NCBI GenBank assembly: GCA_944389885.1
Contig: CALXNZ010000002.1
Location: 1 to 64,000, forward strand
Direction: 5' to 3'
Source of the DNA: an uncultured Opitutales bacterium
GTDB lineage: Bacteria; Verrucomicrobiota; Verrucomicrobiia; Opitutales; Intestinicryptomonadaceae
Length of the DNA: 64,000 bases
Under the pieces are notes generated by a model that was given only the letters and a program-made list of their open reading frames with translations, was not told where the DNA came from and ran no database searches. The position numbers were made by a program, and so were the translations under genes. Position 1 is the first letter of the stretch, and each line of letters opens with the position of its first letter. Shown here in pieces: positions 27,157 to 28,272 of this stretch.

Positions 27157-28272
27157 ATGCTTAAGATACCGGGTACAATTCTGACTGCCATAGCGTGGGC
27201 GACTGTTTTTTTGGCCGCCCCCGTTATTTGCGCGGACACAAATTCCCGAGACGCCGGGAATGGAATGCAGTCAAAATTATATAAGGTATTCGATTCAAAT
27301 AAAAATGCCATAGTAAAGGTATACGCCCAAAAGAAAATCCCCTTTTTAAACAAGGAAGGCAAAGAGGAATTTAGGGCCACACTCGACGTCGGGACGGGAT
27401 TTCTTATAGGCAAGGACGGAATAACCGCCACAAGCGCATACATAACTTATGGAGCCGAAAAAATATGGATAGAATGGTGCGGCAAACTGTTCGACGCTAA
27501 CTTGATAGGATTCGATCCGCTCACGACGCTTTCCATAGCAAAGATAAGCGGAAATTTTAAAAGCCTGAACGCCCCAGTGATAAGTATAGACGCCTCCGCG
27601 CCATTGCCAAGGCTTGGGACTATATTATTGGGAATAAGCAACGAACTTGGATTCCCGCCGTCGCCGCGAATGGGCCTGGCTTCGGGGCACAATATAGAAT
27701 TCGGCGGAGCCTTTCTGCCAACCGTATATGTGCGCACCACAATAGCCGCGCCTAAAGGTAGCGCAGGAGGCGCAGTATTCGACCTAAACGGCAAGTTTGT
27801 GGGAATGTTAATAGCCTCGCTTCCGGAAGCGGAGGGAAGCTTTATTCTGCCGGCCGCCGCAGCGGCAAAAATAAGAGACGACATTCTATTGTGCGGAGAG
27901 CCAGTGTACAGCTGGTTCGGTCTGCAAGCAGAAGACGCCGAGGGCGAAGACGGTTCGCATGTGGCGGTAAAGCTCGTGGCCGAAAACGCCCCCGCAAAAA
28001 AAGCCGGCTTTAAAAAGGGCGATATAATATTGGAGGTAAACTCCCGCAAAGTTTCAAACAATACGGAATTGAGAAATATAACCTTCTTTGTGCGCCCGCG
28101 CGAGACCGCCATATTTAAAGTAAAGCGCGGCGCAGAAACCGTGACGCTCGAAGTTCTTGCCGAACGCATGGGCAACGACATAGTCCATGCCGCGGAAGCC
28201 AATCTGTCCCCTTCAAAAAATGGCAAAAATCCGAAGGACGAAACAAAAGACGCCGAGACAAAGAAGAACTGA
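27157..28272 (+). CDS. HtrA-like secreted protein lacking the catalytic triad, with PDZ domain
   Basis: 371 residues with an N-terminal signal or anchor segment (about 6-26). The trypsin-like fold aligns with DegP: GTGFLIGKDG (79-88), GFDPLTTLSIAKI (118-130) and KGSAGGAVFDLNGKFVGM (200-217). At the triad positions it has Tyr95 for His, Thr124 for Asp and Ala203 for Ser, so proteolysis is not expected. A PDZ domain follows (about 252-337; AENAPAKKAGFKKGDIILEVN). The tail is Lys/Asp/Glu-rich. It may act as a periplasmic scaffold or chaperone; that role is inference. It lies between hemB and metX. Confidence 0.82.
   Translation: MLKIPGTILTAIAWATVFLAAPVICADTNSRDAGNGMQSKLYKVFDSNKNAIVKVYAQKKIPFLNKEGKEEFRATLDVGTGFLIGKDGITATSAYITYGAEKIWIEWCGKLFDANLIGFDPLTTLSIAKISGNFKSLNAPVISIDASAPLPRLGTILLGISNELGFPPSPRMGLASGHNIEFGGAFLPTVYVRTTIAAPKGSAGGAVFDLNGKFVGMLIASLPEAEGSFILPAAAAAKIRDDILLCGEPVYSWFGLQAEDAEGEDGSHVAVKLVAENAPAKKAGFKKGDIILEVNSRKVSNNTELRNITFFVRPRETAIFKVKRGAETVTLEVLAERMGNDIVHAAEANLSPSKNGKNPKDETKDAETKKN

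Follow-up and report, generated by a model that had tools for sequence, protein, structure and literature searches.

The window (the whole stretch of DNA that was analysed, 64,000 nucleotides from an uncultured Opitutales bacterium) carries a gene for an HtrA-type protein in which all three catalytic positions are occupied by other residues. The product, hereafter called the pseudoprotease, consists of a hydrophobic N-terminus, which by eye alone resembles a signal peptide, followed by a trypsin-like domain and a single PDZ domain. Its neighbours, which we take from inspection to be hemB and metX, flank the gene in an arrangement common to its relatives within the family. The features of the locus are as follows:

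27157..28272, plus strand: HtrA-type pseudoprotease gene, an open frame of 371 amino acids
27391..27807, plus strand: degenerate trypsin-like domain, residues 79-217 (Pfam Trypsin_2, 38.7 bits; cut-off 27.6)
27439..27441, plus strand: Tyr95 codon, in place of the catalytic His (alignment to PDB chains and orthologues)
27526..27528, plus strand: Thr124 codon, in place of the catalytic Asp (alignment to PDB chains and orthologues)
27763..27765, plus strand: Ala203 codon, in place of the catalytic Ser (alignment to PDB chains and orthologues)
27907..27924, plus strand: putative PDZ carboxylate-binding loop YSWFGL, from alignment with active HtrAs
27919..28155, plus strand: PDZ domain, residues 255-333 (Pfam PDZ_2, 50.6 bits; cut-off 27)

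The initial annotation of this gene had described an HtrA-like fold with Tyr95, Thr124 and Ala203 in place of His, Asp and Ser, and both this register and the retention of the PDZ domain, with its conserved carboxylate loop, were borne out. A phmmer search of the single protein against PDB chains, in which the DegP-like chain 7xs0 was the top match (E 5e-26), aligns the three residues with the triad, and an hmmsearch with a profile of 53 orthologues against the same chains returned the identical register; the GNSGG of active HtrAs reads GSAGG here. Measured against an active HtrA/DegP, the trypsin-like and PDZ domains are present, while the His-Asp-Ser triad with its GNSGG is missing and the NCBIfam scores lie below cut-off (94.2 versus 416.2 bits for degP_htrA_DO; 76.5 versus 422.95 bits for DegS). 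The comparison of a predicted structure with DegP, which the same annotation had suggested, succeeded in part. Foldseek placed DegS, DegQ, AlgW and DegP on top (best E 1.5e-19) for a four-sequence AlphaFold2 model, a ranking taken as weak support; the models had mean pLDDT values of 55.9 with four sequences and 52.2 with five, and the second barrel was not resolved. The TM-scores were 0.4-0.5, and the catalytic register therefore rests on the sequence profiles.

Whether relatives keep the triad was also a point raised by that annotation, and an alignment of 142 orthologues (the window gene, 89 from its order and 52 from its class) reveals a complete triad in none of them. The catalytic His position is never occupied by His, nor the Asp position by Asp (Asn in 94, Gly in 31, Thr in 10 and others in 7); at the position of the nucleophile Gly is found in 74 and Ser in 17, and in most sequences the oxyanion Asn is gone, 122 of them having Glu, Gln or Asp there. 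His-Asp-Ser is intact in all 43 paralogues checked, comprising 30 loci of ten genomes of family f14 of the order and 13 loci from the window's own family. The intact paralogue that had been proposed for search is indeed present in the window's genome, as a 451-residue HtrA (L001) with TNSHV, TDLAV and GNSGG. The same genome encodes, on contig C10, a 250-residue Trypsin_2 protein (L002:1426-2178) with a GNSGS motif and no PDZ domain, next to a gene whose product has an end resembling, by eye, that of an autotransporter or PEP-CTERM-type surface protein. In a FastTree phylogeny the 141 pseudoproteases and the 41 active sequences fall on either side of a split with a support of 0.999, which becomes 1.0 once the triad neighbourhoods are removed from the alignment; three of the 185 rows, with coverage below 60%, were left out of the trees. 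L094 (upstream region masked, reading frame of unknown residues) was dropped before the counts, L035 and L036 were excluded as duplicates of loci of G011 and G012, to which their contigs are equal in length, and L015 and L021 were excluded as parts of a single gene broken at a contig end.

Orthologues of the pseudoprotease are found in 11 of the 19 genomes of the window's family and, by profile search, in 161 of the 273 genomes of the order at E <1e-55, the active HtrAs checked scoring 1e-48 or worse. At E <=1e-50, 132 of 286 genomes of the class have matches, 114 of them outside the order; 52 of these 114 genomes make up the class sample. A search of 387 genomes of the phylum returned one genome outside the class, G509, whose protein scores like a family member (4.3e-84) and reads D/N/N at the triad; the 18 other loci comprised 13 with HDS, four with HES and one degenerate, the last from a class member. 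Since the orthologues of the order and the class, like that of G509, have no complete triad, the loss is old and clade-wide, and predates the ancestor that the sampled members of the class share. The gene is also under purifying selection: of 34 close pairs, 28 gave dN/dS values of 0.04-0.24 and six were saturated, all pairs being formed by other members of the order, with the window gene, whose nearest relatives are some 60-64% identical, standing outside them. The absence of the triad throughout the class, the low dN/dS and the relatives without a triad strongly support the earlier suggestion of selection for a non-proteolytic role. Strongly reduced genomes of 0.7-1.0 Mb (families f7 and f25-f28; L105, L109, L110, L113 and others) also retain the pseudoprotease, mostly with the gene cassette described below, and in several of their proteins the Ser alone of the three catalytic residues persists (GESG).

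Outside the window's family the pseudoprotease gene is the third of a cassette, behind a gene for an ECF sigma factor and a gene for an anti-sigma-like protein with a single transmembrane segment. Both lie directly upstream of the pseudoprotease at 58 of 62 loci of the order and 50 of 52 loci of the class, and also in one genome outside the class. The four exceptions in the order are L059 and L094, in which the upstream region is masked, L097, which has no sigma gene nearby, and L098, which has neither gene; those in the class are L211, which ends with its contig, and L225, in which the sigma gene was not found. The cassette is often preceded by a gene that we take, from its appearance, to encode a polyprenyl synthetase. 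In G026 (L098:1857-3930) the pseudoprotease follows directly upon such a gene; the approximately 2.9 kb upstream contain neither a sigma nor an anti-sigma gene, and the genome has no anti-sigma match, a case that counts against the regulatory reading set out below.

The product of the first cassette gene matches Pfam Sigma70_r2 and Sigma70_r4_2; its best specific NCBIfam model is RpoE, at 144 bits below the cut-off of 236, and the cut-off of the general ECF model is exceeded. The second gene encodes 140-230 residues with one transmembrane segment in 55 of 58 members from the order and 45 of 49 from the class. Its sequences are highly divergent (mean column identity 22%), and within the order no Pfam or NCBIfam model scored above cut-off. 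H-x3-C-x2-C is found near the N-terminus in 13 of 50 class members, and the zinc-finger model zf-HC2, characteristic of anti-sigma factors, exceeds its cut-off in two of seven proteins scanned. Position, topology and these class-level relatives, in place of a family model in the order, mark the second product as a probable anti-sigma factor, which would bind the sigma factor. An order-wide N-terminal motif, LExLLxLKRxExPxxxFWxxFDxxL, was seen in this protein as well (for example L060:2368-2907 and L101:2286-2888).

In the window's family the three genes are dispersed, yet a single set of 11 genomes out of 19 has all of them and the other eight carry none. In the window's own genome (G000) the ECF sigma gene (C1:156374-156955) and the anti-sigma gene (C1:157035-157373) lie on one contig and the window on another (C2); the distance from the pair to the pseudoprotease is approximately 430 kb on a single contig in G006 and approximately 3 kb in G012. 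The sigma profile used for the family gives the cognate factor E <1e-85, whereas no other sigma factor scores better than 1e-35. Those genomes of the genus that lack the genes and could be placed on the HtrA gene tree, three in number, are not grouped together, which suggests that the three genes were jointly lost more than once. Across the 273 genomes of the order, 149 have both pseudoprotease and anti-sigma gene, 12 the pseudoprotease alone, 32 the anti-sigma gene alone and 80 neither. When family f14 is set aside, the corresponding figures are 145, 12, 2 and 80; all 34 genomes of f14 have the anti-sigma gene, and four of them the pseudoprotease. Where the genes are adjacent, assembly gaps can mimic joint absence, an effect of which the counts within the window's family are largely free. 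That the pseudoprotease belongs to the sigma/anti-sigma system is very probable.

A search for a promoter motif common to the sigma gene and the pseudoprotease gene that has moved away from it gave a weak result, on which nothing is built here. CTTGAAA, close to an ordinary -35 box, is found approximately 30-80 bases before the assumed start of six of ten sigma genes of the window's family (L130-L140; maximum of four after shuffling); it may represent either such a box or a site of autoregulation. No clear promoter motif was seen at 57 other loci.

The most constant feature of the anti-sigma protein is its last residue, which is Phe or Tyr in 133 of 139 proteins: 52 of 58 from the order, 11 of 11 from the window's family, 50 of 50 from the class and 20 of 20 from f14. 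Among controls, the same ending is found in none of 58 sigma proteins and in nine of 171 other flanking reading frames. The entropy of the last position is 1.33 bits in the order and 0.24 bits in the class, as against 1.9-3.8 bits for the preceding eleven positions. In the window's genome the anti-sigma factor ends in ...SVSLF and an Omp85 protein in ...GTVF, from which it follows that the tails of genuine outer-membrane proteins would resemble the anti-sigma end. On the side of the pseudoprotease, the PDZ loop has the consensus [YH]-G-W-hydrophobic-G-hydrophobic, with the Trp in 113 and the Gly in 137 of the 142 orthologues, and the PDZ residues Trp253 and Phe310 are conserved and specific to the family across the same alignment. 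The PDZ domains of DegS and AlgW are described in the available text of PMC8103513 and PMC8545111 as binding aromatic-type C-termini. We lean slightly towards a contact between the PDZ domain of the pseudoprotease and the anti-sigma tail.

Family f14 qualifies this picture. All 20 anti-sigma proteins sampled there end in Phe without a pseudoprotease in the cassette, which rules out that the aromatic end exists solely for the pseudoprotease and indicates that one or more further proteins read the tail, perhaps an active HtrA or RseP. The 30 HtrA-type loci checked in ten f14 genomes lacking the pseudoprotease all have His-Asp-Ser, and the window's genome encodes an RseP-like site-2 protease (Peptidase_M50, 163.8 bits). 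Competition for the tail between the pseudoprotease and such a protease would fit both the cassette and the situation in f14. The f14 homologues (L152-L171) are encoded by frames of approximately 300 residues, longer than elsewhere, and end mostly in sequences like ...RVSLKF; where inspected, their genes adjoin the sigma gene and no HtrA-type gene is nearby.

The initial annotation had proposed a periplasmic scaffold or chaperone. Its non-proteolytic part stands; the remainder is too general, as the cassette, the co-inheritance and the aromatic tail suggest a regulator of the sigma/anti-sigma pair. We put forward, with the balance even, that the pseudoprotease is a non-proteolytic periplasmic PDZ regulator of an ECF sigma/anti-sigma switch responding to envelope stress. 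Direct support comes from the loss of the triad, purifying selection, the cassette, co-inheritance, the aromatic terminus, the PDZ loop, the RseP homologue and the active-type HtrA; the binding of the sigma factor by the second cassette product, the PDZ-tail contact, the sign of the regulation and the outer-membrane-protein signal we infer. In unstressed cells the PDZ domain, scaffolded by the inactive protease body, would grip the aromatic tail of the anti-sigma factor and so keep away the proteases that initiate degradation, akin to the action of RseB on RseA. Under stress, unfolded outer-membrane proteins ending in Phe would build up and compete for the PDZ groove. Once freed, the anti-sigma factor would be cleaved by an active HtrA together with the site-2 protease resembling RseP, which would release the sigma factor. 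That the pseudoprotease shields rather than activates is about as likely as not. More tentatively, the same arrangement might hold throughout the class, as a dead-protease sensor whose PDZ domain clamps an anti-sigma tail that mimics those of outer-membrane proteins, the switch being freed by competition from the unfolded proteins and without activation of a protease.

The opposite sign has to be weighed. The pseudoprotease might work as a dead DegS, its PDZ domain binding the tails of misfolded outer-membrane proteins and its barrel docking on the anti-sigma factor or recruiting a protease, so as to promote release. DegS and AlgW, which read aromatic C-terminal peptides, are with DegQ among its nearest solved relatives, and its carboxylate loop is retained; DegS, however, works by cutting, of which the pseudoprotease is incapable judging by its residues, and the aromatic end sits on the anti-sigma factor, where a direct hold fits better. 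We consider such activation unlikely. Somewhat less probable still is that the protein is a co-regulated periplasmic chaperone for misfolded outer-membrane proteins, produced from the sigma operon when the response is induced, which makes no direct contact with the anti-sigma factor, the tail being read by a different PDZ protein, for instance an active HtrA or RseP. DegP-type proteins are known chaperones, and the Phe end persists in f14 where the pseudoprotease is lacking. The HtrA gene mucD of Pseudomonas lies within the algT/algU operon (available text of PMC6264809). Against this reading, the gene in the window's family is outside any operon with the sigma and anti-sigma genes and is still gained and lost together with them, and W253 and F310 of the PDZ domain are conserved specifically in the family. 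A peptidase still active through other residues is highly improbable: Ser does occupy the nucleophile position in the 17 orthologues noted above, but His and Asp are missing from every one of the 142 and the oxyanion Asn has given way to Glu, Gln or Asp in 122. Decay or a sequencing error, for which the substitutions themselves and nothing further would speak, is refuted by the intact frame, the spread of orthologues over the family and order and a dN/dS well below 1.

In the textbook circuit for envelope stress an HtrA protease is needed to cut the anti-sigma factor. The regulator proposed here, a PDZ clamp on the anti-sigma tail, would derive from a cassette HtrA in which catalysis was lost earlier than the common ancestor of the class members sampled, the protein being retained ever since in its inactive form. 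If the tail is indeed held in this manner, the module would represent a clean case of a pseudoenzyme turned sensor, and would offer a testable path to the signal of an uncharacterised, group-wide sigma factor. A search of the literature returned no publication on this sigma/anti-sigma/pseudoprotease module, although a mention within ECF classification work is possible.

Pseudoproteases of the HtrA type are known from other settings. MamO and the magnetosome HtrA pseudoproteases likewise combine a degenerate triad with a non-proteolytic role, that of MamO being in magnetite formation and metal binding (available text of PMC4794232). The NCBIfam MamO model, however, gives 31 and 42 bits for two orthologues of the pseudoprotease against a cut-off of 800, and the gene context is not that of magnetosome genes. 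Plant Deg proteins predicted to be inactive, such as AtDeg16, also lack triad residues (available text of PMC3473262); unlike the window pseudoprotease, they come from plants and have no link to a sigma/anti-sigma pair.

A closer likeness is found in the RpoE-RseA and AlgU-MucA systems with DegS and AlgW (PMC8103513 and PMC8545111), which likewise combine a periplasmic HtrA body with one PDZ domain, an ECF sigma factor, a single-pass anti-sigma factor, here a putative one, and RseP, of which a homologue is present in the window's genome; aromatic C-terminal peptides are the likely PDZ ligands in both cases. Unlike DegS and AlgW, the window pseudoprotease is without the catalytic His, Asp and Ser, for which reason it is not classed as a site-1 protease; the aromatic end is here on the anti-sigma factor itself, and the pseudoprotease gene lies within, or travels with, the sigma cassette. 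The algT(algU)-mucABCD operon also has an HtrA-type gene, mucD, beside the genes of an ECF sigma and an anti-sigma factor, and mucD has been described as a negative regulator (available text of PMC6264809). Here, by comparison, the HtrA member is catalytically dead, and at the 58 loci of the order there is no space for a mucB/mucC-like gene between the anti-sigma and HtrA genes. RseB has a fold unrelated to that of HtrA, unlike the scaffold proposed here, which is an HtrA. In its proposed role the pseudoprotease would nevertheless resemble RseB as a periplasmic binder shielding the anti-sigma factor (available text of PMC8103513). The nearest system in gene order is thus algT-mucABCD with mucD, and the nearest in logic RpoE-RseA-DegS/RseB; by analogy, the module would be an envelope-stress system of the RpoE/AlgU kind in which the HtrA of the cassette is catalytically dead.
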